A stretch of DNA of 64,000 bases from Auricularia sp. M13 (lineage: Eukaryota > Basidiomycota > Agaricomycetes > Auriculariales > Auriculariaceae), in assembly GCA_037042915.1 (NCBI GenBank), contig CM073195.1, positions 434,001-498,000 of the forward strand. The letters run 5' to 3'. The notes under the pieces were generated by a model. The model was not told the DNA's origin. It saw only the letters and a list, made by a program, of their open reading frames with translations, and did no database searches. A program made the translations under genes and the position numbers. Positions 1 to 19,944 of this stretch are shown here, piece by piece; positions within the stretch are counted from its first letter, which is position 1, and the number at the start of each line of letters is the position of its first letter.

Positions 1-18
1 TGGCCTTGAGTGGTTTTC

Positions 19-240
19 TGGTTTGCTGCTCCCAGTTTTCTCAGGAATACTCCTGAATTTTTCTACTCCTACTCCCTATGTACATATTCCCACTCCCAAC
101 TCCCACAACTCCCAGAGTCCAATTGACTCTTTTTACCCACTCCTGGGCTTCTCCACCCTGTAAGTCTATCTAAGTCAGTACTCCCAACTCCCCAAAAGTC
201 TACCCAAGTCAGTACTCCCAAGCTCCCAAGAAATGCAGAG
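19..240 (-). repeat. Left terminal inverted array (GGGAGT-rich)
   Basis: This stretch is rich in ACTCCC/GGGAGT words. Read on the minus strand it ends outward with CTGGGAG followed by CAGCAAACCA. The stretch 13150-13324 carries the same kind of array in the opposite orientation and ends outward with CTGGGAG followed by TAGCAAACCA; 19 of the terminal 22 bases match by eye. I read the two as the ends of one mobile element, although a dispersed satellite would look similar. Confidence 0.55.
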
Positions 241-250
241 CTCCCAACTC

Positions 251-1961
251 CTAGAGCTCCTTGAGCACCCGACTTCCAGCATTGGCAACTCCCACTGCAC
301 GAGCCAGGGCCGTTTTGGCGCTGAGACGGGCGTACGGTCTCCGGACAATCTGCACAAAGTCAAGTCCCTTACGGGCCCAGTCATCCGGGGCATAAGTCCC
401 AGCTGCGAGCGCGTGACGCGCAGCAATGTTCTTTTGCGCAATGTGAGATTCGTGCGCAGCAGCGGCGTCGAGCATCGGGAAGTCGGGCGCGGGGAACAGC
501 GGCAAGACGTCCGTTGGCTCGAAGGCCGGCGACGCAAAGCCTGGGAACGGCGCGCAGCTGCGCACTGGATCGTGCGCAGCAGCGGCGTCGAGCACCACAG
601 CCTCGGCGCTCGACTGGTCCATGCGAGCGCGCAACGCGTCGTCCAAGGCCGCGGACCAGCGCGCGGCGGCAGCCTCGGGTTCGCGAGCGAGCGGCATGTG
701 CGCCGTGCCGTTCACGGCGAGCGTCGACTGGGTGGGCGTGGAGACGGCCGGGGCGCGCGCCTGGCTGGCCGTGTCATTCTCCAAGGCGGGCACGAGGTAG
801 GACGAGAAGAGCAGCGATTCGCCGTGCGCAAGCCAGCACACGGCGCCGTGACCTTGCGGTGCCACCTGTGACGGCCGTGAGTTACAGAAACAAGCAGGCG
901 GTTGGCACACTTACAGCGTCGTCGTCCATGGCGGACGTGGTCGACTGCCAGCGCGTGGCGAGCGTCGTGCCGCCGGCGTGGAAGTCTCCTTCCCACTGCC
1001 CGCTCACGACGACGGGCGTGTGGTCGAAGTGCGAGACGGGCAGGACAGGCGAGACGGCGAGCGAGACGCGCGAGACGCGCTGCCCGCTTGACTGGTCGGT
1101 GGGCGCGTGGTCGAAGCGCGAGACGGGCGGAACGGGCGGGACGGCGCGCGTGCGCGAGACGGGCGGGACGAGCGAGACGAGCGAGACGCGCTGCCCGACG
1201 CGCTGCCCGTTTGGCTGGTCGGCGGGCGCGTGGTCGAAGCGCGAGACGGGCGGGACGAGCGAGACGCGCTGCCCGACGCGCTGCCCGTTTGGCTGGTCGG
1301 CGCACGCGTGGCAGAAGGGCGGAACGGGCGGGACGACGTCGGAGTCCACGACCCGCTGCCCGCCCGCGAGGTCGGCGGGCGCTTTGTATAAGGGCGAGCG
1401 CTCGACGAGCGCTGTGTCGCTGTGCATGGCGGGCTCGTGGGAGAGCGAGAACGGCGAAAATGCGGGCAGCGCGCCGTTTCCTATGCCGTCGAAGCGCAAC
1501 GCGGGCTGCCCGGGCCAGCGGACGGCAGATGGCGCGACGTTGGAGCCCGTGTTGCGCTGCATTGTGCCAGAGTCGATGTGCCTGGGCTGGAAGTGCATGC
1601 CGGGCGGGACGGGTTGCGCGGGCCAGCGGTCGCCAGTCGCCGCAGCGGCGAAGTCCGCGACCCGCTGCTCGCTGGCGGGCTCGATGAGCTGGATGGGCGC
1701 GGGCAGGACAGGCGGGAACGGCCAGCCGGCAGCGTACGGCGCCTCGTCGAAGCCCGCAACGGGCTGCGCGCGAGCGGGCTCGATGGGCTCCCCGGGCACG
1801 AGCGGAACAGGGTATGGCGCCGCGTTGAAGTCGCGCTCGAAATGGCCGGGAAGTGCACCATTGTCATGCACAAGCCTATGCTCGTGCATGGCAATGACGG
1901 GCAGATGGTGCCAGTGCAGTGGCATAGTGGGGGTGTCGTTCGGCGGTGTAAACCCAGCCAT
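251..1961 (-). CDS. Low-complexity proline-rich protein, 553 aa, two exons
   Basis: I do not recognise this gene. The model is exon 1 1961-915 and exon 2 865-251, with a 49-nt phase-0 GT-AG intron (GTAAGT to CACAG) that bypasses stops in the exon 1 frame. I chose the ATG at 1961 because the protein becomes compositionally uniform from there; the frame stays open upstream. The protein is hydrophilic and rich in Pro, Ala and Gln. Residues about 210-345 contain at least four degenerate repeats of about 25 residues around FDHAP.DQ..GQRV, which correspond to a DNA minisatellite. No membrane segment or catalytic motif is visible. It is the outermost gene at the left end of the candidate element and points outward. 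It could be a structural or DNA-associated cargo protein, but no function can be assigned. Confidence 0.55.
1021..1345 (-). repeat. Coding minisatellite in the 553-aa gene
   Basis: About four imperfect copies of a 65-80 bp unit sit inside exon 1. Each unit contains GAGACGGGCGG/GCGAGACG words and encodes the FDHAP...QRV module. Shorter GAGACG sub-repeats inside the unit suggest growth by slippage. Confidence 0.6.
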
Positions 1962-2448
1962 AGTGTCGAGAGCAGGTAGACGGGGTCTCGCGCGACTCCG
2001 TCCAAAATTCCGAAGCCCGAGCAAAGCGCCGGGCTCGTAGGTCAAGGAAAATGTAGATCGGCGACGTTCGTGGTCTATATTATATTGGTAGCTTAACACT
2101 GATAGCTTCGTACGAAGATTCGGATTAATGCGCGAAAAATGACGCTGGCCGTACATTTGCAGGCGCCGAGTACGAGACGTCGCGCCTGGTCTGTCGCAAC
2201 GCCCTCGATATATTACGGCTGGCCCGTTCTTGTTCATTGTAAATGGCGCTGTGCGATGCTTATCTACACCAGTGCGACACATGGTTATCATGACGTTTAC
2301 TGCGAGGTATATTTGCATGAGATATTACACAGAGAATTGGACGATCCCGACGCACCAGTAATGCAAGTCCGTCCCCTTTGGGGTTCAGCACTCGGGATTA
2401 TCAGGATTATCTAAGATCGCCGGATCGACAGGGTCTCAAGCCACGTGA
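1962..2448. other. Intergenic stretch without a supported gene
   Basis: This is an AT-richer gap between the 5' end of the 553-aa gene and the 3' end of the KDZ fragment. I see no convincing ORF, RNA gene or repeat. A promoter for the minus-strand gene presumably lies here, but no clear TATA element is visible. Confidence 0.3.
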
Positions 2449-3384
2449 TTAAGCATCTGCCTCTCGCGATTTCTGCCGCATGCGGTTCCAAATGGCAAGG
2501 AATGTATAGACAAGGACTATACCGTGGCGTTGGCCCATGTAACTGAGCGACTTGCGGATCTTGAGCAGGCTGGAGTTCCCGCATTCGCCGGCGCTCGAGT
2601 TGATGTTCCGATACTTTTCAGACCATTCCAAATACGCGCTGAGGAAACAGGCCGGCGAGCAGCGGGAGTGGTCGTGCTCATGGAAGCCATCGATGACGAA
2701 AAGGGTGTCGCCGAAGTAGATGGGTTCCCGAATCATGCAGTACGGGGACAGGGCGCAGGCGAAGTCGTACACGACGACTTTGGGTGGCCGAACCCAGTGA
2801 GTGTACAGCGCGGAAAAGACGTCGTTCCGCCCCTCGCCTTTCGGGATGCAGTGAAACCCGTAGCAGACGCTGTGCGGGCACCAGATGGCCATCAAGCCGC
2901 CCGTTAGGCCTTTCTTGCCATAGGTCTGATAAAACTTGGAGCATGCCATCTTCCCGCCCGACGCTGTTACCGTCGCGCGATCAGTTGCGCCGTCTCCGGG
3001 AATGTTGGGGTACACCGATCTGTTTCGAATCCGAGGCTGTCCATAGAAGGTGCCAGTCTGAAATGCGTGTTAACTTTGTCACTGTCCGGGATCATTATAA
3101 AAACGAACCTCGCGCCAATTCTCGTGCTCTTCGATCAGGTGTTCATCCGGGTCGTGGTACGAAAGCGACGCGAAGACCGTTTGAGAACGGTCAAGAACGA
3201 ATCCCGCGACGCTTCGAAGTGTAGAGCTGATTTGTGTCGTTGTCTTCACTTCATACCGAGCGACGACGGCGAGTGCGGGAACGAGTGAGAGTAGCGGCAG
3301 GATGCCCTCCGCGTCGCCGTCCTTGGATCTGGATTTGGGACGTACGGACACTGACGCGTGCTCGACGATTCTCCGGGCAGACAA
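2449..3384 (-). pseudogene. KDZ-type transposase, 5'-truncated (294 codons left)
   Basis: This is the C-terminal part of a Kyakuja-Dileera-Zisupton (KDZ) family DNA transposase of the basidiomycete type. The model is exons 3384-3109 and 3057-2449 with a 51-nt phase-0 intron (GTTCGT donor, TTTCAG acceptor). Visible blocks are KFYQTYGKKGLTGGLMAIWC, then VVYDFACAL...YC..REP, then the His-rich FVIDGFHEHDHSRCSPACFL, then NSSAGECGNSSLLKIRKSLS.M, and a final helix FLAIWNRM. These match what I know of KDZ proteins, with acidic residues at YDFAC and GECGN as likely catalytic ligands. A full KDZ transposase is much longer; the 5' part is missing and the reading frame runs into a tandem repeat at 3338. 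It may be a dead remnant or a mis-assembled full gene. Confidence 0.75.
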
Positions 3385-3735
3385 CTGACGCGTTGACTGC
3401 CACTGAGGGGAATGGACACAGAGAAATTATTAATCAGAGAATATGGCTGCTAAGGAGAGTAATGGGCAAGGTTTTATTATTTTAATTTGAGGATGGCGGG
3501 GCGTACGGACACTGACGCGTGCTCGACGTTTCTCCGGGCAGACAACTGACGCGTTGACTGCCACTGAGGGGAATGGACACAGAGAAATTATTAATCAGAG
3601 ATTATGGCTGCTAAGGAAAGCAACGGGCAAGGTTTTATTATTTAATTTGAGGATGGTGGGGCGTACGGACACTGACGCGTGCTCGACGATTCTCCTGGCA
3701 GACAACTGACGCGTTGACTACCACGGGAGGGAATG
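3338..3735. repeat. Tandem 160-bp repeat, about 2.5 copies
   Basis: Units start near 3338, 3498 and 3659 with a period of about 160 bp and very high mutual identity. Each unit holds two palindromic sites, one centred on TGACGC after CGGACAC and one with arms GGCAGACAAC and GTTGACTGCC, followed by an AT-rich tail containing TTTTATTATTT. The first unit overlaps the 5' coding end of the KDZ fragment, so the array appears to have been copied out of transposase coding sequence. Confidence 0.8.
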
Positions 3736-4599
3736 GGCAAAGGTAGAGTATAAAGAAAATGTATGCCTGGCACTAGGGGGTTATACGATGTATTCAGTGG
3801 GGCAGGAGGGACGGCCGAAGAGAGCGCAGACACTGACGCGTGTCCACGCTCACCAACGACCTGAGCTCTGGATGGCAACTGACGCGTTGCCACCGGCGGA
3901 GCGGAGGGAGGGAGGAGGGAAGGGGGAAGGCGGGGTGGCGGGCGAAGGCGGGTGGGTGACGGGGATGTGGGTGTGCGGAGGAGGGGAGGGCGGATGAAAG
4001 ACCAAAGTCCGTTCGAACTCCGACCCAGACTCACCGCCCGCCCGCTGCTGTCGACGCCACGGGTCAGTGTCCGTCCGACAGCACGGCCAGGCCCGCTTAA
4101 CTGCGGGCCTGTGACGAGGCCGCTCACGCGTCAGTGAGCGGCTTCTCGGCGTTCTCCTCATAGGCGAGATGATGGGGACAGGTTCTTCGCTTAGGCGTAC
4201 CTGCACGGCCACCAGCATACACGCTCACGCGCCAGTGAGCGTGGGTGGTCAGAGGAGGGTACATGCGTCAATGTATCCTCCTTGGCGTCCCTCAGAGTGC
4301 TCCTGTACATTTTCTTGTCGTTCCTCGCAGCCATTCCCCCAAGACCCCCAGACGCAGTCGCCCGCTTGCCCAAGGACGCCACCCGCATACACGCTCACGC
4401 GTCAGTGAGCGTGGGCGATTAGAGGAGGGTTTATGCGTCAATATACCCTCCTTGGTGTCCCTGGACATCTTCTTCCCGTTTCTCGCATCCATTCCCCTCG
4501 ACGCTATCGCCGGCTCGCACAAGGACGCCACCCGCATACACGCTCACGCGTCAGTGAGCGTGGGCAGTCAAAGGAGGGTATATGCGTCAATATACCCTC
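3341..4599. promoter_or_regulatory. Palindrome cluster 1 with fixed hexamer centre
   Basis: At least ten inverted repeats occur here, each with a six-base centre GCGTCA (or complement TGACGC; one GCGCCA). Examples: arms GGCAGACAAC/GTTGACTGCC at 3376-3401 and 3537-3562 (one mismatch); GAGCGCAGACAC/GTGTCCACGCTC at 3822-3851 (two mismatches); TGGCAAC/GTTGCCA at 3873-3892; GCCGCTCAC/GTGAGCGGC at 4119-4142; CACGCTCAC/GTGAGCGTG at 4220-4243, 4390-4413 and 4539-4562; AGGAGGGTTTAT/ATATACCCTCCT at 4423-4452 (one mismatch); GAGGGTATAT/ATATACCCTC at 4574-4599. The arms change between sites while pairing is kept. The cluster ends about 220 bp before the 330-aa gene. It could be binding sites, DNA cruciforms or RNA hairpins. 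Confidence 0.85.
4088..4111. other. Perfect hairpin with TTAACT centre
   Basis: A perfect 9-bp inverted repeat (arms CAGGCCCGC and GCGGGCCTG) flanks the hexamer TTAACT, eight bases before one of the GCGTCA-centred palindromes. It has the same geometry (six-base centre) but a different centre. Confidence 0.7.
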
Positions 4600-4660
4600 A
4601 TTGGCGTCCCTGGACATCTCATTCCCGTTCCTCGCATCCATTCCCCCCGACAAAATCAGT
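4201..4660. repeat. Tandem repeat of about 150-170 bp, three copies
   Basis: Units begin near 4211, 4380 and 4530. Each carries, in order, the ACGCTCAC/GTGAGCGT palindrome, a second palindrome built on GGAGGGT.. and ..ACCCTCC, then a C/T-rich tail with TTCCTCGCA and CATTCCCCC. The array lies just upstream of the 330-aa gene, so it may act as a repeated upstream element. Confidence 0.8.
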
Positions 4661-4816
4661 GTTGCGCCCACAGTCAGAAGATATGCTCGAGCATTGGAAG
4701 ATCCCTTCCCTGAAGAGCATCAGGTGCTATTTCGTGGGACCGCGCAGCGACGTACTTAAACGTCTGGGTCTCGCAGTTACAGACTTGACATTACCCCGCT
4801 CTTTAATCCTCTTTCC

Positions 4817-5809
4817 ATGCCCCCCAAGCTTCCCCTCTACTCTCTACCGGACAAACCGACCCGCCCCAACGGCGAGTGGCAGTTTTATTGTCAGATGGTG
4901 GTGCGTATTATCCGCCGCGCTTTTCTTATGTTGCGCGAGACTAAAGTCAACCAGACTGGCGAGACGATCATCGTGAACACGCCGCTTTTCAACCGGTGGT
5001 TGAGCTACGACGAGCTGCCGCCCACCGTGCTCTCTCTCCTGAACGACTGGGAGAAAAACTTGTTCGTCGAGGTGTTGCAGGTGCACCCAAGTTACGGTGA
5101 GGATATTCCTCGCTATGCGCACCTGAAGGAAGGCGACGATATGGACATGGGCCGGGATGGCCATGACTGTGACGGCATGTCCATCGTCGTACAGCTCCGG
5201 CTTGTGCGCAGGCCGTACAGCGGATCCGAGCTGCCAGATCCTATCCTCCAACCGCGAACCCGAATCCCGGAGATACTACCTGGCGACACCGCCGCCGCCG
5301 CTCCCGCTCTCGCCCACACCGCTGCCGCTGCTGCTCCACGCACCAACCCCGCCGCCGCTGCCACTCCCGCCCGCACCGCTGCTGCTGCCGCTCCACGCAC
5401 CAACCCTGCCGCCACCGGCGCTCCCGCTCACGCGCCCACCGCCACCGCTCCCGCTCCACGCACCAAACGCGCTGTCGCCCCCGCCACCGTGCCGCGAAGC
5501 ACCGCCGCCGCCGCTGCCACCGCTGCCACTCCCCTCGCCAACGCTGGCCTCCGCGGTGGCGCCGCCAGCGGGACGGCAATCATGCAGCGGCCAATGGCTG
5601 GTTCGGCCAGCCGCAATGGCCGCCCCAAACCTAACCCGTTCGCCACCCCGGTGCCCGTTCCCGGCCCGTCGAAGAGCCGCGACGTCGCCAGTGCCAGGCA
5701 GGCACCCGCGGCACCGTCGAGCAGGGACAAGCGCAAGAGAGACATGCAGGGCGAGGTCGATGAGCAGCAGGAACTCCAGCCGGTGACGAAGAAGTCTCGT
5801 TCGGCGTGA
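4817..5809 (+). CDS. Ala/Pro-rich protein with basic C-terminus, 330 aa
   Basis: I do not recognise this single-exon gene. The ATG at 4817 (MPPKLPLYSLPD) follows a CT-rich stretch and is the first in frame. Residues 1-125 look globular and mixed, with an amphipathic stretch around IIRRAFLMLRE and an aromatic-acidic segment. Residues about 155-260 are an Ala/Pro/Thr-rich low-complexity linker with PRTNPAA and PRTKRAV echoes. The last 35 residues contain two basic clusters, KRKR near 303 and KKSRS near 325, resembling nuclear localisation signals. It lies inside the candidate element between the KDZ fragment and the TET/JBP-like gene, directly after palindrome cluster 1. A nuclear, nucleic-acid-associated role would fit but is inference only. 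Confidence 0.6.
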   Translation: MPPKLPLYSLPDKPTRPNGEWQFYCQMVVRIIRRAFLMLRETKVNQTGETIIVNTPLFNRWLSYDELPPTVLSLLNDWEKNLFVEVLQVHPSYGEDIPRYAHLKEGDDMDMGRDGHDCDGMSIVVQLRLVRRPYSGSELPDPILQPRTRIPEILPGDTAAAAPALAHTAAAAAPRTNPAAAATPARTAAAAAPRTNPAATGAPAHAPTATAPAPRTKRAVAPATVPRSTAAAAATAATPLANAGLRGGAASGTAIMQRPMAGSASRNGRPKPNPFATPVPVPGPSKSRDVASARQAPAAPSSRDKRKRDMQGEVDEQQELQPVTKKSRSA

Positions 5810-5993
5810 ATACCCTTCCCTTACTTTATTTTTATCACTTTGTAATCTCGATGAGCCTGTCCTTGACCCTCTTAACCGCCAATCTTAATGCTTTCATTTG
5901 TTCATGATGAATGAGTGCCCGAAAATTAGTAAGGTGAGATATGAGTGCATATATGCTTGCCAGGGTGAGTTGAATACATTCGCTATTCAGAAA

Positions 5994-7572
5994 CTAATTC
6001 ATGGGTTCATCGCAGTCACCGTTGCCTTCGTCGAAGGGCGGCTTATAGCCCGCCATTTCTTTGTATGTGAAAAGCTTGACCTTCGTTGCACCGACCTCCG
6101 CAAGGACATTCTTGTGCATGAAGTGCGCAATCGCGATGCGCTGACCGCCTGCGAATTGAACAGAGTGCTTCAAGATGCCCCCTCTAATGAACGCAAGTGT
6201 TCCGGGGAGATAGTTAATGTCCGAACCCGCGACACGAAGCGTGCCTTCGCGGTATTTACCCACTGTGAGAATCGGCGTCCATGCGAGCTTCATATCGCGG
6301 CGGTCAGTGTGTTCGCCGGTCTCTCGATTGTAGATGAGACTTCTCCCGTGGAGGAAGGAGGGGTCGGCAGCGGCCAGCGCGGCATACGCGGGGTACATGG
6401 CTTTCAACTTCTCCGAGGCATCGTTGAAGAGGTTGTACTGCTCGGGGTCGATGAGCTGGAACATGTCCATGAGTCGCATGGTCACGAGCCGCAGCTCTCG
6501 AAGCAACGCGAGCCCCGCGTTGAGGTTGTCTGTTTTCTTGAAGAGATCGCGAGCGGGACCCGCAGGGCCACTGTTCGCCTTCACCCGGTGAGCACACACA
6601 CTCTAGGCTGATCATCTGAGCTCACCGATCGACCGAGGGCCCTCCAGATGGATACCAACTGGAATACGCCGTGCAGTTCGTCTTGATGCTCCTGCCGAGT
6701 ATAGCATTCTTCCGCGTCTCTCGCATTCTGATCTGCGCCAGCGCGAATTTTCACACCGACACTGCGCCCGAAGTCCATGAGACTCTTGAATAGGATGTCC
6801 TGAGTTTATTCCGCACGTGAGTAGGAGTTTCCGCAGCAGCGCGGACGCACATGACTAGCTTTGGATAACCAGTTCGGGAAAACGATGACAGCAGGTACGT
6901 CTTTCTTGTCCACGAGGACAAAAGGCTCATCGCTGACCCTGGCCGTCACAGATTCGAAGGCGGGGTAAGGCTTGCTGTTGCGCTCTTGATTCCTGTCGAC
7001 GAGCGCGGCGAGGTCGAGCTCGGGAACGCGGTCTGTACGGAGGAGTTGGTGAGGGCATGTATTCTCAACAGTACGTACGTATATTCCCGGGCTTCAGCGC
7101 AGTCTCTAGCATCTTCTTATTGAGACGATGCCAGCTTGTAAGCATCTTCGCCTCAAGTTTCTCGGGATTTAGTGCTCTGGATTTCCTTCGTGGCAAGTCA
7201 GAGCAAGTGCGTGAGTGTTCAGGCGATGCTGACTTATGCTTGCGGCCTTTAGCTTTTGTCCCAGTTTCCGCGAGCGGCTCAGCAGCTGATTCGCCAGCCG
7301 CGAGAGTCCCAGCAGCTTGTACCGGAGTCACAGGTTGCTCAGTGACCTGTCCAGCATCGTCGTCCGATAGAGCTTCCTCCGTACCGTCGCGTTGAATGCC
7401 AAAGAGATCTCGCAGTTTTTCCCCACCGCTGAGCTGTGCCTGCTGCACGATTCTCTGGAATAACTCGGCGAAGTCCACCGGGATACTCTCATTCTCGGGA
7501 TATGGTCCTACCGACGAGTTGATGAGTCGCAATGGCCAGAACGATGAGTTGCGCACCTGGAGTGTCGGCCAT
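5994..7572 (-). CDS. TET/JBP-like 2OG-Fe(II) dioxygenase, 461 aa, five exons
   Basis: The model is exons 7572-7557, 7507-7079, 7032-6851, 6799-6626 and 6578-5994. All phases agree, and introns of 46-51 nt remove every internal stop; the last acceptor is AAG rather than CAG, the weakest point. The C-terminal domain shows a 2-oxoglutarate/Fe(II) oxygenase signature: NRETGEHTD (His about 357, Asp 359), WTPILTVGKY, a distal GGILKHSV (His about 405) and QRIAIAHFMHKN (Arg about 414, which would bind 2-oxoglutarate). In fungi, oxygenases of this kind belong to the TET/JBP group, which oxidise 5-methylcytosine, and are known to travel with KDZ transposons (Iyer and colleagues, 2014). The N-terminal half has an acidic/basic linker and a VLVDKKDVPAVIVFPNWL block. 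A KDZ fragment lies 2.6 kb away on the same strand. The activity on DNA is inferred, not shown. Confidence 0.75.
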
Positions 7573-8570
7573 GGGCAGGACGGATGTGCGCGAGATCGGC
7601 TGCGGAAAAAGCACGGCTTATGTGCTCGCTGCGACGTGGGTTATTAGGGAGAGATCGAGGATCGATAAGAGCAACGCCAGCACATCATGTGCGGCGCGTG
7701 TTTTGCGGACCGGTGCAGGCACGGAATCGTTGCCATATCGGGAATGCAGGTCACGTGATGCGTGCAACCCGGCGCGCAGAAGCCGCGAACGCGCGGACTT
7801 TAAACCGCGTGTTCAACTTCTGCTCTGGCCGCATACCCCGGAGCAACCTTCGCCGCTGCGGCTTGAGGGAGCTCTAGGGTCCTAGCATAAGCCAGTGACG
7901 CCGTTGCGGCAGCTCAGGGTGGTCGCGAACGGCAGCCAGAGCAGCGGTTGAATACCCTTTTCGTCGTCGTCGGTGCGAGACGCGTCCGTCGCTCGCGACG
8001 CGTCCGTCCCGCGCCCACGACCGACGGATTGTATGTAAGATATTATTGCGAACATATTGCGGCAAGTATCCGGGCCAGGATCCTCAACGTGCGGTCGCAG
8101 TCGCGTCTCACTGCTCATTGCGTCACCGTCAACAGCGTCACGTGACGTGTCCCGTTCGGGAACGCGAACTCTGGAAATGAAAGCTCAGCCAATGCAGGGC
8201 TCAAGATGACTTAACTAATCTACAAGACCCCTTTGAGAGTTAAATTGAGGGTTTCTCAGTTAAAATAATGCTATCTCAGGCCATGAGGTTGAGTCAGGAG
8301 TGTGAGACAGGAAGGGCGCAGCGGAAATTTCATGAGATATTATTCCAGTGCGCTCATTTAAACTTGTTGTAGTTTTCTCATTTTTTTCGAAATTTTATAA
8401 ATGTATTCTCGGCCTCTGCGTTGAGGAAAGGCCATTCGACAACTTAAACGACCGATTTGGCTGAGCGGAGTTCGAAGTGCCCGAGTCAGCCGCCGGCTGC
8501 CGCCGGGCGCTCTCCAAGCTCTCCTTCGCTGCGTAGACGAGTCAGTCGACGCAGAGTATCGCGCCAGTGG
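7573..8570. other. Intergenic stretch without a supported gene
   Basis: This is the region upstream of the dioxygenase gene and ahead of palindrome cluster 2. Near 7980 there is a short direct repeat of CGACGCGTCCGT. Otherwise I see no ORF with coding character and no RNA gene. Confidence 0.3.
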
Positions 8571-8572
8571 AC

Positions 8573-8914
8573 CGTTCGCGCGTCAGCGAACGTGTAGCTG
8601 GACGCGCTACTGGGAGCTCCTGCACCATCGACCTGGTTCACGCATCAGTGACACCAGCGTCTTTGAGCGTCAGACAATCGCCGCCTGTACTGCGCTGCCT
8701 GCGCACCCCCATTCCGTCTCTCCCTCGCAACTCCACATAAATCAGCGCCACGCTCACGCATCAGTGAACGTGGCTGTTGAGCTTGCCGCGATCAGCGCTC
8801 AAGCGTCCAGTTCGTCCGTGCATCACACAGTCACGCTGCCTGCGCACCCCCAGTCCGTCTGTCCCTCGCAAGTGAACATAAATTAGCACCACGCTCACGC
8901 ATCAGTGAACGTGG
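8573..8914. promoter_or_regulatory. Palindrome cluster 2 with GCGTCA/GCATCA centre
   Basis: Four sites repeat the design of cluster 1. They are CGTTCGC/GCGAACG around GCGTCA at 8573-8592; a shorter TCAC/GTGA site around GCATCA near 8642; GCCACGCTCAC/GTGAACGTGGC around GCATCA at 8747-8774 (one mismatch); and CCACGCTCAC/GTGAACGTGG around GCATCA at 8889-8914 (one mismatch). The last two lie in direct repeats of about 141 bp (8690-8975). The cluster ends about 260 bp upstream of the start codon of the 1229-aa gene, mirroring the position of cluster 1 before the 330-aa gene. Confidence 0.8.
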
Positions 8915-8975
8915 CTGTTGAGCTTGCCGCGATCAGCGCTCAAGCGTCCCGTTCGTTCGTGCATCGCACAGTCAC
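8690..8975. repeat. Two direct repeats of about 141 bp
   Basis: Both copies run from the words GCTGCCTGCGCACCCCC through the palindrome and GTTGAGCTTGCCGCGATCAG to GCACAGTCAC. They are nearly identical apart from small substitutions, for example CTCCACATAA against GTGAACATAA. Confidence 0.8.
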
Positions 8976-9171
8976 CGCCTGTACCGTCCGTCTCTCTCCA
9001 CCCCCTCCCACCACTCAGAATCGTCCCAAGTATCCAGCCTGTCGTATATTAGACGTAGTATAGAAATCATCCACAGATCCACTAGTAGATATTCTCGAAC
9101 TCGTATTTCAGTGAGCCATCTAGACCGAAACCATGTCAATTTTTATTTACAAGTCGCTCAGGCAAACGAAA

Positions 9172-12100
9172 ATGAACGTGGACTCTCGAGACGTCGACAT
9201 GGACGTCGACAATGCGTGAGTGTTTCGAGTATGCCGTCTCGATCTGATGCTGACGACCTCGCAGCCAGCCAGCGTCGAATCCGAACGCGCAGGCACAGGC
9301 TGTCGACGTCCAGATGGAAAATACCATCGACGAGAATGAATCGTGAGTTCTCGAGATGTTTCTACTGGCAGACGAGCCTCTGATGGCTTCGTTCAGGGAG
9401 GACCCCGCGTTCACCGCTCTGCCGTATTTCTGCGCCTGGCCCAGCCTGCGGGAGGCCAGATACATCGTGCGGACGAATCGAGACGTTGTGCCCGAGATAC
9501 CAGACTACCCCGTCGTCGACCCAACGCGCTGCGTCGACGGTCGGTTCGGTCTCTACGAGGCAAGCCAACTGCCGCAGATGCACGACGAGAACAACCTGCA
9601 CATGGCGTTCGTGCCGCTGCTCAAGCCGGTGGGCTCACAAGTTCCGCTGCAAATTGGCCGCGCCTGGTGGAATCTCCGGCACACCGACATGCTCGGAGAC
9701 TTGGGTTGGTATCGTCTCGAAGACGAGCACCTCCGACCAGCAGGCAGCGAGCTCTTCAAGTTGCCCACGCTGCTTCTAAATCGTATCGAAACGACGGAGC
9801 TGGAGACGACACCCCTTTGGCGGGCAGCCGTGGAGAAGCCAGGCCGCAGGACTGCGTTGGCCCGTATTCCAACGGAGCGGTACGACAAGTTCGTTGAGCT
9901 CACAAGCAGCCTGAGACGACAGTCGTTAAAGAAGTGGGACTGTCACGTCAACTTCGCAGAGTGGCAGCGCTGTCTGAACGAGATACGGGGCTGGATGGAG
10001 TTGGAGAAGAAGACGGGCGACCTCGAGGCGGGATTGGACGCATACATTCCCACCGTCTCGTCATACGAGGTTGCTCGCCGGGCGCGTATATATCAGGCTA
10101 CTCGGCACGTCGCGCCTTATCGGGGCTGCTTCACCACCAGTGACAAGTTCGCCATGTTCTACGCATCGCGAGACATTCCTGTGTGGCAGCTCCTGCCTTT
10201 CACTCGAGCACACTTCAACGAGCTCCTTGAGAAGCAGCGGGCGGGAGTCATCCGACGAGCCATGTACAGGATGTACGGGAGTCAGCAATGCGCTCATATA
10301 CACGACATCGAGCGCAACCATTATGTCGAGGCGCAGCCCGTCAGCGACATCACGACCTTCTCTGGATCAAACGTCGCCGTCACCGAGTCCGTCTGGAACG
10401 GCACCGAGGACGTCGGCTTCCAGGACAACGCGCCTGTACCCGTCGCAAGCTCGTCGAGCGGCGTTGCAGGTCCGAGTTCGACGAGCCATGACCCGAGGCT
10501 GGCTAAGCCGCCAGCGCCAGCGCCACTTCCTCCCCCGCCAGCGCATCTTCCTCCCCCGCCTGCGCATCTTCCTCCCGCGCCAGCGCATCTTGCAGGGCAT
10601 CTGCCTCCAGCGCCGCAGCTGTCAGCAGCCGGGCCATCGACAGGCGCGAAAGGGTCGGGCATGTCGTCCAAGCGCAAAAGACAGGGTATGTATCTGTTGG
10701 CTATTTCTCATGATAGGTTACTGACCAGAACTGCAAAGACCCGGGTTCCAGCGCGGATGCCCCGCCAAAGAAGCGCAACCGCGGAACGACTGCGAAGCTG
10801 CTCGAAGGGAAGAACTCGACAATTGGCCTGGACAACATTGTGCTCGTGGCGCCAGACAGGATTTCGGCTTACAAGAGCACGGAGCGGCCGCACTGGTTCC
10901 CAACGGTATTCATGCCCGCTCATAACGTCTCCGGGCGCGTGAATGTATCGCGGGAGCGGCAGCTGGACCTCATGACCGCCGACGTGCTGCCTGTGCCGCC
11001 GAACATCGGCAAGTTGCAGCTGCACAAGGTCCCCTTGGCATCGTATTTCGTCAACGCCTGGAAGGCCGCAAAGGAGCCCGGCTTTAACTTACGCAAGGGC
11101 AAGGGCGGTGTACCCCTCGCCAGTGCCACGCGGCCCCAGGAAGTCAAGAGCGGAAACTTGAATACCGCTAAACCCTTGCTGCATTGGCTCAAGATCCGTC
11201 CTTATTTTCTTCGGCGACTGGCGACGACGGATGCCAGTCAGAATCCAGGCATGTCCGCGCCTCATTGGCGAAATTTGTTGAAGTTGGTCGTGCCGGAGCA
11301 GCATGTCGCTCGCATGGTCAACTTGCTCGGTCTGGACGCGAGCCTGCCGCAACCAGCACCTAAGGTCACATCGTTGCCCAAGCCTGTGGATGATAGTGTG
11401 CAGGACGAAGACGAGCCTGCTCCGCTACCGCCCGCATCCCAACCGTCTGCTGCACAGTCCGGTCAAGCCGTACATGCTCCAGCGCCGCCGCATCCGCCGC
11501 CGCCTCCACCCCAGCCTGCGCCGCCGCCTCCGCCCCGTCTGAATCGTCCACGGCCGGCGAGAGTCTTCGACATCGACGAAGATTCTGACTCTTGCGAGGA
11601 GGAAATGAACGAAATGTACGGTCCCCCTAGTCCCCCCGTCCAGGCAAAGACCGTCTCTGAGCTCAAGGACACGCTCATTCGCGACCTTTTCGACGAACCC
11701 GAACAAGGCGAAGTAGCTCGACGGAGCGAGGCTGAGCGGCGCCAGGTCGAACCCAAGACCTGGTATATCTCAGAGCCCAAGAGCAAGAAGACGCGCCCGC
11801 TGACGTACTACACTGTGTGGTACTTCAGCGTGGATGAGGCAAACGACGACGCCCCAACGTTCTGGCTGATCAGTCGCAAGCATCGCGACTTCCACAACAT
11901 CAAGCGCGGCATGACGGAGTGGTGGGACTACAAGGCGAAGCGCATCATCTATCTGCCCTTGTCCACGCAGTACCTCGAAGGCGAGCAGCTGCTCAAGAAC
12001 TCGATTGAGTGGCGGACAAACGATGACCATCCGCAACTGGCACCTCGATCGCGACGGATTTGGCGGGCAGATTGGGATGGGTGAGTCCGCAGTTGTGCTC

Positions 12101-13064
12101 AGTCATTAATCACTCATGAAATTGTAGATGCTGGGAACGTGCGGGTGTCAAAAAACCGCAACCAAAGGCCAACAAGCAGGGTCCCGTTGCGGTTATGGGC
12201 CCCCTTGGCACCATCGTCGAGTGGCGCCGTTCGCGTTTCGAGGATCCGTCTGTGCCGCCGTTGTCTGTCGGGCCCGAGCCGCCAGCGGTGCCGTCGAGCT
12301 CGTCACGACTCGAACCACCTCCCACTGCTGGTCCAAAGCCTTTGACGACGCAGCCCGAGCCGCCTGCTGAGCCCCCCGCCAACAAGACACCGCCTGAGCC
12401 GCCTGCTGAGCCCCCCGCCAACAAGACGCCGCCCGAGCCGCCTGCTGAGCCGCCCGTCGAGATGCCGCCCGCCGAGCCGCTGAAGCGCATCGGTCAATAT
12501 ATCGACCGAATCAACCACCCGACCTTTGACGGTCACGAGCTTCCTCCCTTCACGGCGGGCAAGGACGACGATGCTGTCTGGCCGTCGCTGGATTGGCGCA
12601 GGTACATCATGTGGGAACTGACGGAGCTAGAGTTCCGCTATGAGCTCTTCTACCTCGACCTCACGATCCGGCAGAGTCACCCTGACCACGCGCCACTCCA
12701 GTTCGACGCAAAGCAGCGATATAGACAATGCCGCGGTTGCTGGGGTGGCTCCGACTTTGTCCCTGGCACGGACCGGAATGCGATCAACAAGCTGACCGTC
12801 GTCGATCGCACCGAGCGCCTCGAGAGCCTGTGGAACTTCTACACGTTCATGCGCCCTTGGCCTCGAGCTGACCAGTTCCTCAAACCGTGGGATGAGCTCG
12901 TCGCCATCGGCGGCAACATCCACTCCGTGAACTGCGAGTCCGAGCTCTTCTATGATCTGGAGAGCAGCGTTTGGCATTGCTTCGCCCAGTCCTTCATGGA
13001 CTATCGTCACAGACTGCCGCCGGTGCCTCACCTTCGTCCGGAATTGCCTGTAGCTGTAGCATAA
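9172..13064 (+). CDS. Large uncharacterised protein, 1229 aa, five exons (copy A)
   Basis: The model is exons 9172-9215, 9265-9342, 9397-10685, 10739-12080 and 12128-13064, with introns of 47-54 nt and consistent phases. The protein starts MNVDSRDVDMDVD (acidic). Blocks shared with copy B at 26243-30438 include CVDGRFGLYEA, NLHMAFVPL, DLGWYRLEDEHL, a LNEIRGWMELEKKTG segment, PYRGCFTTSD, and near the C-terminus WRRYIMWELTELEFRYELF (about residue 1072). Three proline-rich linkers (about 409-445, 718-742 and 989-1035, the last built of EPPAEPPANKTP units) separate the conserved parts. I see no membrane helices and no catalytic signature. It resembles, from memory, an expanded unnamed Agaricomycete family. 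It is the outermost plus-strand gene of the candidate element, and its paralogue also sits beside a KDZ remnant. Function is unknown. Confidence 0.8.
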
Positions 13065-13149
13065 GTTGTATTATAGCTGTATCGTAGCTCGTTTTTTTCT
13101 CATCTCGACACACTGTATCTTTCGCACACAACTCGCGCAATACATCTGC

Positions 13150-13324
13150 TCTGCTTTGACCATTTTGGGAGTCAGGAGTGACTTGTGTTTTATTCCGCCT
13201 TACAAGTTGCTCTGGGAGTACAAGTTTTATTTCACCATTAACTTTGGGAGTACAAGTCTCGGGTTCAGGAGTCAGGAGCAGTCAAAGTCAGGGCCTGGGA
13301 GTTCTGGGAGCTGGGAGTAGCAAA
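13150..13324 (+). repeat. Right terminal inverted array (GGGAGT-rich)
   Basis: Several GGGAGT and TCAGGAGTCAGGAG words occur, ending with CTGGGAGTAGCAAACCA. This is the inverted counterpart of 19-240 and begins about 85 bp after the stop codon of copy A. I could not identify a target-site duplication, since the left flank is cut by the window edge. Confidence 0.55.
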
Positions 13325-14214
13325 CCAAAATACAAGTGTCTAACATATCTGTGTACCGCCGTGACATCCCAATACCGCGGATGTGCTGTGACCTGTGACA
13401 TACCACGATGATTACCGCGCCGCGCGTCTCAGAGGGCGCGTGGCGCGGTAAGGTAATAATTTCGATGCTTACAGTATGGTTTCGCTTGCTCCTCCGGAAT
13501 GGCAAACATGTGCAATGCACGTCACATTCATTATTGCTGTGTGGTTTTTCGGCAGCATGCCACGTACGCTGTTATCTTTATTGGCTGTCAGAACTTCAGT
13601 ACCCAATGCGCCAGTGACCCACCTCCACCGTCGCACGATCAGACTGCCTCGGACCGCCGCTGCCATCACCTGTACAGCGGCATACTACTCGCCGTCTTTC
13701 TTATCAGGATCTCGTCACACGTCTTATTGTTTTCTCATGCGCGAAAGGCGGGACAGAAGTGACAATGTGACGCGAGGTCGTCCTGTTGTTATCAGCTCGT
13801 TCCCATGGGAGTGCAAATTCTAGCGACATCTGTACACCCGTCACACTCTCGCATTATCATATTCTCGCGTGATCAAGTGTGCTTCAGGCGCTGTATTCTC
13901 GGGCGGCTTGTACCATCCATGAATGCTAGTGCTGGGAACAAATGCCCGTCGGCGTACCCAATCGAAGCCAGTCCGCGGAAGATAACTGTAAAGGGCGATG
14001 CATCAGTAGAGGCGTTTCCACTCAGTTTTGTACTGCAGATTCCAGCATAGAAAGGTAGGACCTACTACCAAGCCAGAGAAATTCCTTTCAAGTATGGAAG
14101 AAAATTTGCCTCCATTGCACAGCCACACCGTTTCGCGTCTTTAACATTGTTATTTATGAAGGTGGCACATACTGCTAGTTATTCTTCACGTCGCGGTCGG
14201 TATCTAACGCAGCA
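13325..14214. other. Intergenic stretch without a supported gene
   Basis: Short ORFs exist on both strands but none shows coding composition or plausible splicing. I see no repeats beyond short A/T runs. Confidence 0.3.
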
Positions 14215-14700
14215 ATGTCGTCCCTTCGGCAACTTCTCGACGAACTGGAAAGCCTGCTAAGCCAGGAAGGAACAGCCCCGGACACTACCTCTTTGACAGC
14301 GGGGTGTTTTGACTTGGTCAAGTACCTTGAAAACAAAGCCAAGGTGGGCTCATCCGTTCAAAGGCATCACAAAGCTCAGTTAGTCTCAGACGCTACCAGG
14401 GATCATGGAAAACGTTCCCAAAACATTCTGGGCACGTGTGCTGGAAGAGCTACGCTCAAATTTCGAGGCTACATCGTCAAAGCTCAATACGGGCGCCCAG
14501 GCGGCCGATTGATGCCGCCTGCAATCTATGACCATGCTTGTGTTGACTGCGACCCTTTGCCGGACACCCAGGTATGAGTCTATGCGGTCTCTTCGAATAA
14601 GTTCTAAACTTCGCATCTGACTCAGTTCGTGTACACATTCATCGGTTGCGACCTTGGTATTGCTACAATCTCCTATAAACTAGCGACCATAGATGGGAAT
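14215..14700 (+). CDS. Small uncertain gene or gene fragment
   Basis: The first 43 codons (MSSLRQLLDELESLLSQEG) look coding, with a leucine-heptad character. A 46-nt GT-AG intron (14344-14389) would join them in phase 0 to a segment reading TLPGIMENVPKTFWARVLEE, which stops after about 40 residues. The unspliced frame instead stays open to 14577 and contains YDHACVDCDPL, after which a further GT-AG pair could lead to FVYTFIGCDLGIATISYKLA. I cannot decide between the readings, so it may be a broken gene. I do not recognise the product. Confidence 0.3.
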
Positions 14701-15229
14701 TCTCAGAGAACGTCTGACAGCCTGTCTGTTCGAAGGCACTGATGGTGGTACCAAGTAGCTCGCGGTGTTGGCGCCATCAGATATACCGCAGGCCGTAGGG
14801 AAGGACTGCGCCTGTGTGGCCACTCTCCCGATCTACGGCGGCAAGTGAGCACATCCTTCCACATGCGCTCGAGCACGAAGCGTATCTCTAGCAATGAGCC
14901 CGCGCTGCAGGCAACCTGGGCTACCTCATGCGCAACGGGCGCTCAATGCACAAGTACGAGTTCGGTTTGTGCATCGCCGTTGTGCTCGGCAGTCTGGTCG
15001 TACTGTGCTTTCCAAAGCTCAGATTGAACCAGTCAGTCCGGCAGGAGCGCGTGGTCTGCAAATGACGCCAGCGGCTGTGGGAATGATGAGGAAACAATGG
15101 CTACTCACCGTGAACAGCGGGTATCATGCGACGCTCGGCGTCGGCGCAAGGATGTGCGACCCAGCGTCGACAGAACAGCCGCAGTCATGAGCAGGTGAAC
15201 AAGACAACGGCCAAGGGGCGCAAACGAGA

Positions 15230-15985
15230 AAGCACAACCTCCGCGCCTCGAAGGTCGGCGGGAGCAGGCCGTTCTCGACGTCGGACGGTTCGATTTCAAT
15301 GCAAATGCTCTCAATCCGCCGAAACCATCAGTTAGTGAGATGTATCACAGTGCATCCCTTAAGCTTCTCGCGCTGCGCCTCATTGTCGAGTGCCTGCAGC
15401 ACGAGCTCGATGACGCGCGGGGGCTCCAGCGCGAGCTGGGCGTCCACCGCAACCTTCTCGCCCAGCGCGCGCGACGCAAGCGTCGCTAACTGCGCGGCCT
15501 CCGGCACCGCAATGCCCACGAGGTTCTCGCACAGTGACTTCCGTGCACGTACACCTGCTGCAGCAGCGTGCACGCGCTGTGCGCGTGCTCGCAGCGCTCC
15601 AGGCCGACGTACTCGCCCTTCGCCAGCTTCATGATGTCCTATGTACCCACACAATGCACATCAGTAAGGGTAACGGACAAGAAGGAAAGTGAGCGAAGAG
15701 GAGAAGGCAGGCGACATGCAGGCCTTAACTCGGTCTATGATCTTGGGGCGCCTGGACTTGTCGACGAGCCGGTGTGCAGCCAGCCGTCGTCCTCGATGAG
15801 CTTGCGCGTGTTCTCAGGGTCCTTGTATTCCCCAGAGATGCACACGTCGGACTTGAATGTAAATCTCGCCGCGTGGGTACGGCTTGTCATTACCCGAGTA
15901 GACTGAGCCCATCACGGGCATGTCGACAAGCTTGACGTGGCAGAACTGGCAGAACGCGTGCGGCATGCCCGCGAACCCGCCCGGT
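15230..15985 (-). pseudogene. Long-chain acyl-CoA synthetase remnant
   Basis: Minus-strand blocks match the C-terminal half of AMP-binding long-chain fatty acyl-CoA synthetases: CHVKLVDMPVMGSVYSG then DKPYPRGEI, EYKDPENTRKLIEDDGWLHT, KIIDRV, IMKLAKGEYVGLER, and EPSDVENGLLPPTF. The live enzyme activates fatty acids to acyl-CoA using ATP. Here the frame breaks between PRGEI and the EYKDPENT block, another break follows GWLHT, and the adenylate-binding N-terminal half is absent. The fragment straddles the outer edge of the left inverted-repeat arm (15768), so the part downstream of GWLHT exists only in this copy. Confidence 0.7.
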
Positions 15986-18505
15986 CAGTCTGCATCACAT
16001 GTCACGGATGGTCCGCGGTAAGCTCCCCCGCGGTGTCACGGCGGGAGAGAGGCGGTAATAGTACTTGTGCTTACTGTTCCTCTTGTTGTCGGCGAGCATG
16101 GCGCTTGAATAAAGCGGCGAGCGGTGGCCTGCTTCAACCCTCGAACCCTCGGACGCGACTTTGAGCACGATTGCCCATCCACTGGCGCCGCGAGCTCGGC
16201 GTGAGCACGAGATCGAACGCGTCAAGAGGAGGAGAATCGACGGGCACTGCGCGAGCGCGCTATGCGGCTCACCGAGGAGAAGCTGCAATACCAGTAGGCA
16301 GACGGCCTCGGGCCGCTCGACACGACCGTGCGGCCGAAATACGCGCTCGACGCGCACGCACGCGGACATCGCGACGCCGGCCGCGCTGGACACGCCCGTG
16401 TTGTCGCTCAAGCCCGCGCGCTAGAAGCACTCAGAGGCCCGAGGAATGTTTCTGGCGTCGCACACTTCGCGCGCATAGAGGATGCCCACGCGACGGTGTG
16501 TGAGCGGCAACGCCGCGAAACGGCTCGGCGGCGTGCAGATCTTCTTGGGCGGGCTGGAACGCGTCCACACTTGCTCCCTCGATTGCATCAGTGCTCGACG
16601 ACGATATATTGCAACGTGCCTGAGTGTTTGGTCAGGGACCTGCTGCCGCATCGAGTTTCCCTTCATTTGTACGCCCGCCTCATCCTTGTACTCAAGATTT
16701 GATCTAACGTCTGCTCCAGGAAGCGCTGGCGGCATGCACGCTATCAGTGCCACTGCTCGCAGTGTATCTGCCCAGCCTGCGCCGGCCCAGATATCCTCGT
16801 CTTGCCGTGGATGGCGCTACTTCATCCCGTGTATCACGGGCGCCGTGTGCAGCACCATCATCGCCGTCGTCTCCGTACCCGTCCTTGTATGCTGGCTAGG
16901 AACCACAACGCCCTGTGGCCCTTGTGATACGCCATGCGGCAGGCTGCTTCGACGATTTCCGCGCACCCAGTGAGGACGAGTTGCAGTAGCCACGCCCTCC
17001 ATGACGTTGCGCTCTCGACGATCAGACAGACGCCGCCCAACGATAGCCTGTCGACGCGCAGTGACACAATTTATCGGCGCCGACGCACTTTCGCTCCCTT
17101 TGAACGTTGAACCGTAAAGCCCACCCAGTGGCGCGCGACCGACACGGCCTCAGCGGTCTGTTCAGTACTTACAACGACCGCGAGAGCCGTGAAGGCTCTG
17201 GAAGGGATGTGCCGGGCGACGGTAGGCACGGCGACGATACAAGACTGCTCGACGGCGTGAGCAGCGGTCAGAGCGGTCTATAGAGCACTTACAGCATCCA
17301 TGAACGCCGCTGGAGCGTAGGCTGGCGGAGGGCTGGTATGGGGGCGACGTTGGGCTACTGAACGGCGTGAGCAGAGGCCACAGCAGTCTATCAAGCACTT
17401 ACGACGACCGGGCGGATTTTAGAGCATGCAGAAACAGTAGCTGGCCGATAACAAATGGAGTAACTGCTAATTACTGCTGCAAGGTGTGAGCAGCGACCAG
17501 CTCGTTCTTGGGAGAACTTACGATGACCGAGCGAGCCGTGAGCGCTCGGCGAGGGAGCAGCTGGCCGACGGCGAGTACAGCAACCATAGAGTGCTGCAGG
17601 ACGGCGTGAGCAGCGGTCAGAGCGGTCTATAGAACACTTACAGCATCCACGAACGCCGCTGGAGCGTAGGCTGGCGGAGGGCTGGTACGGGGGCGACGCT
17701 GGGCTACTGAACGGCGTGAGCAGAGGCCACAGCAGTCTATCAAGCACTTACGACGACCGGGCGGATTTTAGAGCATGCAGAAACAGTAGCTGGCCGATAA
17801 CAAATGGAGTAACTGCTAATTACTGCTGTAAGGTGTGAGCAGCGACCAGCTCGTTCTGGGGAGAACTTACGATGACCGAGCGAGCCGTGAGCGCTCGGCG
17901 AGGGAGCTGCTGGCCGATGACGAACATAGCGACGACACAGCGCTGCGAACGGCGTCAGCGGCGGCAAGCATATTCTGTGAGGCAGTTACGACGACCCAGC
18001 GACTTACCGGGGTTCGGCGAAGGAGCTGCTGACGGATGACGGACACAGCAACGGTACAGGGCTGCGCGACGGCGTCAGCAGCGGTCAGAGTGGTCTATAG
18101 AACGCTTACGACGACCGCGAGTGCTGTTCGAGCGCAGGCCTCGTCGAGCTCGGCAGCGACGACGGAATTGAGCTGCCGTCTGCGCCAGGCTTGCGAATGG
18201 CCCTTGGAGCGCGCCGGTGGCCCGTGGCCGCTGGCTCCGATAACGGCCCAGAGACCTCGCCCGTATCACGGCGCCATCGCAGGACGTCTGTGAACTCTTC
18301 AGGTGCGCATTCCGCGGATGCAGCAACGCACAGACCATCTTACAGCTGCGCAGCGGCTCCTCCGGTGGTCACGAGTCGCGCGGCAGGAAGCAAGAGCGTC
18401 GGAGTCCGGATGTATTATCTCTTCCTGCTCTCGCTCGGCGAACACTGCCGTCTTTTCCTTTTTTTTTCCATGCCTATATCGGTCGCGCTCTCGCATTTCT
18501 CTCCT
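15768..18505 (+). repeat. Left arm of a long inverted repeat
   Basis: This 2.7-kb arm reappears inverted at 54362-56872 with very few substitutions, judged from long identical peptides and DNA words (for example the 75-residue frame at 15937-16164 and its exact partner at 56482-56709). The right arm lacks about 225 bp of this copy (near 17920-18145) and about 10 bp near 16350. The arm contains part of the acyl-CoA synthetase remnant, an unresolved coding-like stretch and the module array. Confidence 0.85.
17150..18125 (-). repeat. Array of exon/intron-like modules (left)
   Basis: Read on the minus strand, the array alternates 65-75 bp blocks with 45-48 bp blocks that begin GTAAGT and end CAG, with a CTGCTCAC branch-like word. 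The higher-order period is about 349 bp. It is the inverted partner of 54778-55480, where coordinates of single modules are given, plus extra modules that the right arm has lost. Confidence 0.7.
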
Positions 18506-18951
18506 GTGTCAATCACCTCGGCGCTCTCAACCTTGACCGAGTTCCTGTCTGCTAGACATTATCAGCTTCTGTCAAGAATGGCACGTGTCGCTTTCCACTG
18601 GCCGGTCGGACGCGTTGGAACTCCGAGTGCAATTCCCAACGCATGCATATTGCTAGCATCGACGGTGCCCCTGTCGCACGGATCTTATGGCCTGCGATGA
18701 GCCGCTACGGCCGCGTGCGGGACTGGCTTGCTCTGCAACCTTCCTCCATCGTCGAGCCAGACGGTGCACCAGTGGTGTGAAGCAACGTCAACGTGTATTC
18801 AATAAAGCGGGGTAATTTTCTACATCATATTGCGCGCGCGTTGAGCATGGATATGAAGCGTTGGTCGTCAGCGTGACGGATGAGGACGGGGCGCTCCTCG
18901 CTGGACGTGCTGGAGGGGCATAGTTGACATGTGCAGTAAATCCGGCGGCGT
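18506..18951. other. Spacer without a supported gene
   Basis: This lies between the inner edge of the inverted-repeat arm and the 3' end of the WOPR gene. I see no convincing gene or repeat. Confidence 0.3.
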
Positions 18952-19890: not shown

Positions 19891-19944
19891 TGAAACGGCA
19901 GTGAGGAGGCTGAGGATGAGGCGAACAATTTGAGTCGCTAACCT

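Follow-up and report, generated by a model that had tools for sequence, protein, structure and literature searches.

The window analyzed here, i.e., the whole 64,000-nucleotide stretch C3:434001-498000, is part of the genome of Auricularia sp. M13 (52 Mb in 14 contigs). Its first 13,351 nucleotides belong to a KDZ transposon with a Tet_JBP gene, and within this element two clusters of short palindromes (referred to as hairpins) carry a nearly fixed six-base centre, typically GCGTCA, on paired arms of unlike sequence. Eight copies of the element were compared, located on C1, C3 (three, window included), C4, C5 (two) and C7; the seven copies other than that of the window are labelled A to G. Bit scores of hairpins in the following list are from a covariance model built on 13 hand-picked hairpins of the family, with a reporting threshold of 18 bits.

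1..13351, no strand assigned: host transposon, left end near window position -6, right end 13351
2449..3015, minus strand: KDZ transposase remnant (Pfam PF18758, 22.7 bits, under the 26.6 cut-off)
3341..3722, minus strand: left half of cluster 1, made up of three tandem units of ~160 bp with two minus-sense hairpins each, GCGTCA on the minus strand
3341-3367, 3502-3528 and 3662-3688, minus strand: hairpin b, bulged, 19.7 bits
3376-3401, 3537-3562 and 3697-3722, minus strand: hairpin c, centre GCGTCA
3824-3849 and 3870-3895, minus strand: hairpins d and e, arms differ, centre GCGTCA
4009..4022, minus strand: motif CGGAGTTCGAACGG, the point of the hairpin strand flip
4118..4143, plus strand: hairpin f, GCCGCTCAC.GCGTCA.GTGAGCGGC, 36.4 bits
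4219..4599, plus strand: right half of cluster 1, three units with hairpins g and h in each
4219-4244 (centre GCGCCA), 4389-4414 and 4538-4563, plus strand: hairpin g
4255-4280, 4425-4450 and 4574-4599, plus strand: hairpin h
5994..6599, minus strand: Tet_JBP dioxygenase exon (Pfam PF12851, 29.1 bits, under the 34.9 cut-off)
8466..8479, plus strand: second motif match (12/14), directly before cluster 2, same sense as the plus-strand gene
8529..8914, plus strand: cluster 2, hairpins j, i, k and g-type
8529-8554, plus strand: hairpin j, centre GAGTCA
8570-8595, plus strand: hairpin i, centre GCGTCA
8632-8658, plus strand: hairpin k, centre GCATCA, bulged, 18 bits
8748-8773 and 8889-8914, plus strand: g-type hairpins, centre GCATCA

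Paired arms on a nearly fixed centre

The original prediction for this window had claimed palindromes with a fixed centre in two clusters; they are present, at 3341-4599 and 8529-8914, and the set is larger than claimed. The covariance model found 20 hairpins of at least 18 bits in the window, all within 3341-8914 and 16 of them with at least 27 bits. The best window site outside the clusters (15545) yielded 17.8 bits, and nothing above 15.0 bits was scored across 81 kb from 22 loci elsewhere in the genome. Since the model was trained on hairpins of the family, its top scores are high partly by construction, and more weight is carried by a count without choice of sites, in which every GCGTCA on both strands was taken and the seven pairs nearest the centre were counted. 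At least five of the seven inner pairs were formed at 15 of the 19 sites in 3326-8920, at neither of the two sites elsewhere in the element, at 0 of 45 sites outside it (13352-64000; maximum 4) and at 2 of 73 sites at the 22 other loci (each exactly 5). The most frequent centre among 6-base-spaced palindromes in 3326-8920 was GCGTCA (11/25), and no centre exceeded 3/103 outside the element. An exhaustive statistic, the maximum number of mutually unlike perfect 6-bp arms on one centre, gave 3 arms on GCGTCA in 3326-8920, whereas 150 shuffles gave 1 (143) or 2 (7). The proposed comparison with shuffled and unrelated sequence thus came out in favour of the prediction, as neither shuffles nor genomic loci reproduce the paired centres, and a chance origin is rejected by the GCGTCA pairing counts, the shuffles, the covariance-model scan and the other loci.

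Regarding the arms, about 10 types occur in the window and 11 in the family, where the centres are GCRTCA, GCGCCA and GAGTCA; the palindrome centred on GAGTCA (8529-8554) is additional to those of the original prediction. Imperfect arms with mismatches or bulges occur as well (e.g., CACGCTCAC/GTGAACGTG). Simple duplication had been set aside beforehand, which is justified for the arm types, as these are unlike, but not for the units of 160, ~150 and 141 bp, which are tandem copies, so that the sites are not all independent. Tandem duplication alone accounts for the copies inside each array and not for the arm types. Three stray CACGCGTCAGTG sites (C1:7.80 Mb, C2:3.62 Mb and C1:0.82 Mb) were rejected as hairpins, with 3, 3 and 4 of 7 inner pairs; two other GCGTCA sites with 5 of 7 pairs were seen in the stretches around them. 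CACGCGTCAGTG occurs six times at ~9.5-kb spacing in C1:7802229-7849764, with unpaired arms in the one copy read; this region resembles a large tandem array, perhaps of ribosomal DNA.

The covariation was assessed in two ways. Alignment A1 comprised the 13 hand-picked hairpins; each arm type was represented by one or two of them, and where there were several variants the one that paired best was used. Hairpin b came from copy F, the window version being excluded along with the bulged k and the T-T variant of h. In A1, 123 of 130 cells pair (94.6%) and both-side changes occur at 10 of 10 pairs; because the rows were picked for pairing, this covariation is supportive only. The second source is a third cluster near the left end of the element, present in copies A, D, E, F and G (5/7 other copies; the stretches for B and C stop short of this region) and not found in the window copy. 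In locus L017 (C5:3336001-3346000) it spans 3006-3454 as tandem repeats. Its arms are new, CGCCTTGCGC.GCGTCA.GCGCAAGGCG, and a compensated form, CGCCCTGCGC.GCGTCA.GCGCAGGGCG, is found in A and F. A genome pattern search with its inner 20 bases yielded 18 exact and 7 compensated rows, one stem pair being seen as both T-A and C-G; the single-mismatch rows were 4 T-G, 5 C-A, 4 T-C and 1 A-C. The suggested covariation check has a positive outcome, in the unlike arms, the paired changes on both sides and the compensated stem of the third cluster. At the level of the sequence, a nearly fixed centre, variable paired arms and compensated changes are established, and the pairing of the stems is very likely under constraint.

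The host element, its copies and a divergent relative

Both clusters lie in one transposon, as had been proposed; the host is a ~18.9-kb KDZ transposon with a Tet_JBP gene. Copy E (C5) extends from 1099 to 19971 of its stretch and is flanked on both sides by CATACGCG. An 8-bp target duplication was found in two of the three copies examined at both ends (ATCATCCT in A, CATACGCG in E), and none at the two ends of the window copy. The element starts with 5' GGGTT and ends with 3' ..CTG. Its KDZ transposase has a cysteine cluster (CxC4, 2.8e-37 in copy E), and additional matches to the copy E transposase frame, of at least 89% identity, are found on C1, C9, C10, C11 and C12. As drawn for the window, the transposase frame and the Tet_JBP exon are on the minus strand and a third gene, without Pfam match, is on the plus strand.

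The window copy lacks ~2.0 kb between 3325 and 3326 compared with A, B, D, E and G (5.5 kb compared with F), and most of the transposase is therefore gone from it. It also lacks 2.07-2.14 kb between 4732 and 4733 compared with all seven other copies, a gap shared with a copy on C12 (L041); the missing stretch holds a long minus-strand open frame in copy E. The predicted position of the clusters, 220-260 bp upstream of plus-strand genes, needs correction accordingly: for cluster 1 this spacing exists only in the deletion copies (the window and the one on C12), and the placement is not general, as the left half of cluster 1 is oriented like the minus-strand transposase. Between 15 and 23 hairpin sites were listed per copy (8 copies), including at least one chance site (copy B, position 74). 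The left array of copy E is longer, its centres, those of d and e among them, reaching as far as ~1.2 kb from the transposase ATG. As judged by CACGCGTCAGTG matches, the number of ~160-bp units beside the transposase start ranges from 2 (C1:403118-403289) to 7 (C5:3343152-3344123). Outside the element, a ~450-bp stretch of the window at 17164-17964 matches itself at 349 bp spacing with 89% identity, i.e., it is a tandem repeat.

C6 carries a divergent relative of the element, which recurs almost unchanged on C8 (99% over 2.5 kb). Its transposase, Tet_JBP and plus-strand genes have the same order and orientation as in the window element, with amino-acid identities of 34-35% (KDZ), ~53% (Tet_JBP stretch) and 37% (plus-strand gene); the Tet_JBP profile scores 44.4 (C6) and 43.2 bits (C8), above the 34.9 cut-off. 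It has hairpins of its own, upstream of the transposase (L052; C8 copy L055) and of the plus-strand gene (L051), with a spacer of 4 and the centres AATC, ACTC and ATTC. Four perfect, mutually unlike arms (CCCTCG, TTTACG, GGCAAG and CGCTGC) surround AATC, the arm CGCCCACA surrounds ATTC, and ACTC is surrounded by the arm CCGCA and, with a mismatch, by CGCCCTCG in the C8 copy; the remaining hairpins are less perfect. Regarding the number of unlike perfect 6-bp arms per centre, the relative reached 4, compared with 1 (293) or 2 (7) in 300 dinucleotide shuffles, 1 (11) or 2 (1) in 12 window chunks from outside the element, and 0, 1 or 2 at 19 other loci. AATC had 6/6 inner pairs at 4 of 27 sites in the relative, and at least 5 inner pairs at 0 of 266 sites in the window outside the element. 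Alignment A2, with 8 rows drawn from the relative's paired-site list (excluding L052:626, 894 and 1070; L051:153, 791 and 1941; L055:810; L029:2684; and L055:408, 598 and 678, which are repeats of L052 sites), showed pairing in 91.1% of 56 cells and both-side changes at 6 of 7 pairs. A covarying stem with a conserved loop, as in RNA regulatory hairpins, is found in both families. That the design was kept in this cousin element while the loop changed suggests that the loops are read by something.

As read from the sequence, the loop strand flips at the motif CGGAGTYCGAACGG in both families. Among window sites of at least 18 bits, 8/8 left of the motif are minus-sense and 12/12 right of it are plus-sense. 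The form CGGAGTTCGAACGG is exact in the window and in copies E and G. The relative's motif is CGGAGTCCGAACGG at L052:624 (1 mismatch; 2 mismatches in the C8 copy, L055:539); a single minus-sense hairpin lies toward the transposase from it, and the hairpins past it are plus-sense. Motif-like strings also occur, in either orientation, upstream of the transposase in relatives in which no set of hairpins was seen (L053, 644; L054, 598 and 751). As the remaining 50.6 kb of the window, beyond the element, gave 8 matches with at most 3 mismatches (the chance level), weaker motif matches mean little. The CGG..CGG of CGGAGTYCGAACGG resembles a zinc-cluster factor site, and the motif at the flip point is perhaps part of a promoter; a sigma-70-type promoter scan is not meaningful for this organism. 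Near the flip point, at 4088-4111, there is also a perfect 9-bp palindrome, CAGGCCCGC.TTAACT.GCGGGCCTG, with a spacer of 6 as well and a different centre.

Form and possible function of the hairpins

In 6/6 copies that have the start string of the transposase, which is absent from the window copy and copy G, 28-29 nt separate the end of the nearest loop from the ATG; if this ATG is right, that hairpin is hard to exclude from the mRNA leader. The z-scores of folding (loop strand/complement) were -8.98/-5.51, -5.55/-0.94, -3.15/-1.69 and -2.63/-1.37, and thus favoured the loop strand in 4/4 segments. The loop-strand mismatches of 29 distinct hairpins comprised 13 G-T wobbles, 8 A-C and 14 others. 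In the last unit of cluster 1, an outer stem GGACGCCA/TGGCGTCC around g and h gives a predicted three-way junction, both strings being kept in 8/8 copies. Taken together, the z-scores, the wobbles, the distance to the ATG and the kept outer stem make the strand asymmetry lean toward a single-stranded, probably RNA, form. As a separate observation, an outer stem GGACGCCA/TGGYGTCC encloses g and h in the second and third units (4380-4612; other copies alike).

The best single reading, preferred here tentatively and at less than even confidence, is that of RNA hairpins in transcript leaders, the loop of which is read by an element-specific factor. The hairpins would then be cis-elements of the KDZ/TET transposon family that act single-stranded. 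Transcripts would leave the regulatory regions marked by CGGAGTYCGAACGG and carry the hairpins in their leaders, and in cluster 1 one set would read leftwards into the transposase mRNA and the other rightwards. The factor would recognise the loop (GCGUCA here, A-H-UC in the relative), the stem needing only to pair, and binding along a whole array would govern how much the element's own genes yield, whether through translation, through processing or by shielding from silencing, with each family tied to its own regulator. Transcription of the hairpins, the factor and the regulatory effect are what we infer from the arrangement; of the loop-read hairpin with drifting arms that had been predicted, the pairing constraint is well supported, while the loop-reading protein is likewise inferred.

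The iron-responsive element (IRE) has a CAGUGN loop and a bulged C; it presents a six-base loop to a protein in mRNA leaders, on a stem that is largely free in sequence. The hairpins of the KDZ/TET element share the six-base loop and the largely free stem sequence, and would share protein reading and leader location; they differ from the IRE in the loop GCGUCA, in forming arrays and in lying inside a transposon. Rfam gave no match in 3300-9150 up to E 1. By analogy, the hairpins may work like conserved-loop hairpins of the IRE type, yet they belong to no hairpin family tested.

Several observations weigh against hairpins read in transcript leaders. The raw folding energy is lower for the complement in two of the four segments, and the wobble excess on the loop strand is small. 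A TATA-like sequence, TATATTAG at 9045, separates cluster 2 from the probable ATG (9133), which would place the cluster 2 hairpins upstream of transcription, and in copy E the plus-sense half of cluster 1 faces a minus-strand frame instead of a plus-strand gene. Of 32 third-cluster cores (rows with 0-1 mismatches), 18 are fully paired, and the others show no strand preference. The eight young copies give no clear sign of stems being better conserved than their flanks (varying columns, three segments summed: 6/252 in stems and 20/722 elsewhere). In the relative, L051 is without motif match, and 2 of its 7 rows are weaker paired sites that have the same loose centre on the opposite strand. A fixed-centre set was not found in the regions covered of other relatives, which are parts of elements (L029-L035, L043, L044, L046, L048-L050, L053, L054 and L056; L035 has one palindrome with a TTTC/TTTT centre three times with identical arms), and no loop-binding protein was identified.

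As an extension of the leader reading, the loops might form a coded address system by which a superfamily of eukaryotic DNA transposons regulates itself, and in which family-specific loops and a co-evolving element-encoded reader keep sister elements from cross-regulation; this is possible, though doubtful. Rather unlikely, too, although the main rival of the leader reading, are hairpins that form in DNA (as cruciforms or on single-stranded DNA), extruded by supercoiling at promoters or during replication, and that serve to control a promoter or to aid transposition once the transposase, or a different protein of the element, has bound the loop. The pairing data fit such DNA hairpins equally, the clusters are intergenic and adjoin a promoter-like motif, and cluster 2 appears upstream of the TATA-like sequence; furthermore, the inverted similarity between the element ends is weak and lies some tens of bases inside them, so that internal sites could serve the transposase. 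A cruciform would expose both strands, however, whereas the z-scores favour one strand throughout and the orientation is ordered, and a Pfam scan of unspliced element frames gave no hairpin-binding domain.

It is improbable that the sites are ordinary double-stranded binding sites, the flanks of which became palindromic through template switching or local inverted duplication, with pairing unselected. TGACGC is like a bZIP half-site and ACGCGT like the MCB box, which makes the centre a plausible factor site, and intrastrand template switching, which perfects imperfect palindromes, could have perfected these. The process would have to yield about eleven arm types on one centre with the spacer fixed at 6 and to recur around AATC with a spacer of 4 in the relative, whereas GCGTCA elsewhere is hardly ever paired (0/45 and 2/73) and the three stray CACGCGTCAGTG sites reach only 3, 3 and 4 of 7 inner pairs.

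A replication or rolling-circle-type origin with the hairpins as nicking sites is very improbable. Geminivirus and nanovirus origins are stem-loops with a conserved loop and differing stems, one per genome, served by a Rep nuclease. The conserved loop on varying stems, the hallmark of such origins, is shared here, but each copy has some twenty sites, grouped in two or three clusters, the 8-bp target duplications are as in cut-and-paste elements, and no HUH/Rep nuclease was found by Pfam in 18 unspliced frames of two copies (8 of the window, where two more scanned frames fall outside the element, and 10 of copy E). An artefact, i.e., one or two palindromes duplicated and read selectively, can hardly be upheld: many copies do stem from tandem duplication, but the arm types differ at most stem positions on a nearly fixed centre, shuffled and genomic controls lack the pattern, and a second family has it.

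Relation to described elements and significance

With a CxC4-bearing KDZ-type transposase and a Tet_JBP gene in one element, the host resembles the KDZ/TET elements described in PMC12730594. The Kyakuja subgroup is characterized there by 7-bp duplications and CA..TG ends, unlike the 8-bp duplication (two copies), the GGGTT 5' end and the ..CTG 3' end found here; the 8-bp target duplication, seen in two of the three copies examined at both ends, is listed there as a feature of Zisupton/Dileera. In the main text of that source, 'hairpin' occurs 0 times and 'palindrom' once, on another matter. The REP palindromes with GTAG and CGTC tags are prokaryotic and have the tag at one repeat end, the CGTC type being without transposase gene association, according to PMC3733652. 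They are likewise a family of short palindromes with a short fixed tag, and the inner four loop bases here are CGTC; the hairpins differ from them in having the constant bases in the loop and in being clustered within one transposon. Among the matches listed for literature on KDZ/TET transposons, Kyakuja/Zisupton, ACGCGTCA palindromes and transposase mRNA stem-loops, judged from the parts of these sources available, no description of such fixed-loop hairpins was recognised.

Elements with a conserved loop and a free stem can be found via fixed centres and paired arms, whereas similarity searches would miss them. The self-recognition of transposons, in which their proteins identify their own DNA, is usually ascribed to repeats in terminal or subterminal position. 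In this element, what can be recognised seems to be a loop, held by whatever stem pairs; each copy has 15 to 23 of them, and the loop differs in the relative. If true, this would provide a testable system for how related elements in one genome separate their regulation, and the candidate system belongs to a family that also carries a TET/JBP-type dioxygenase.

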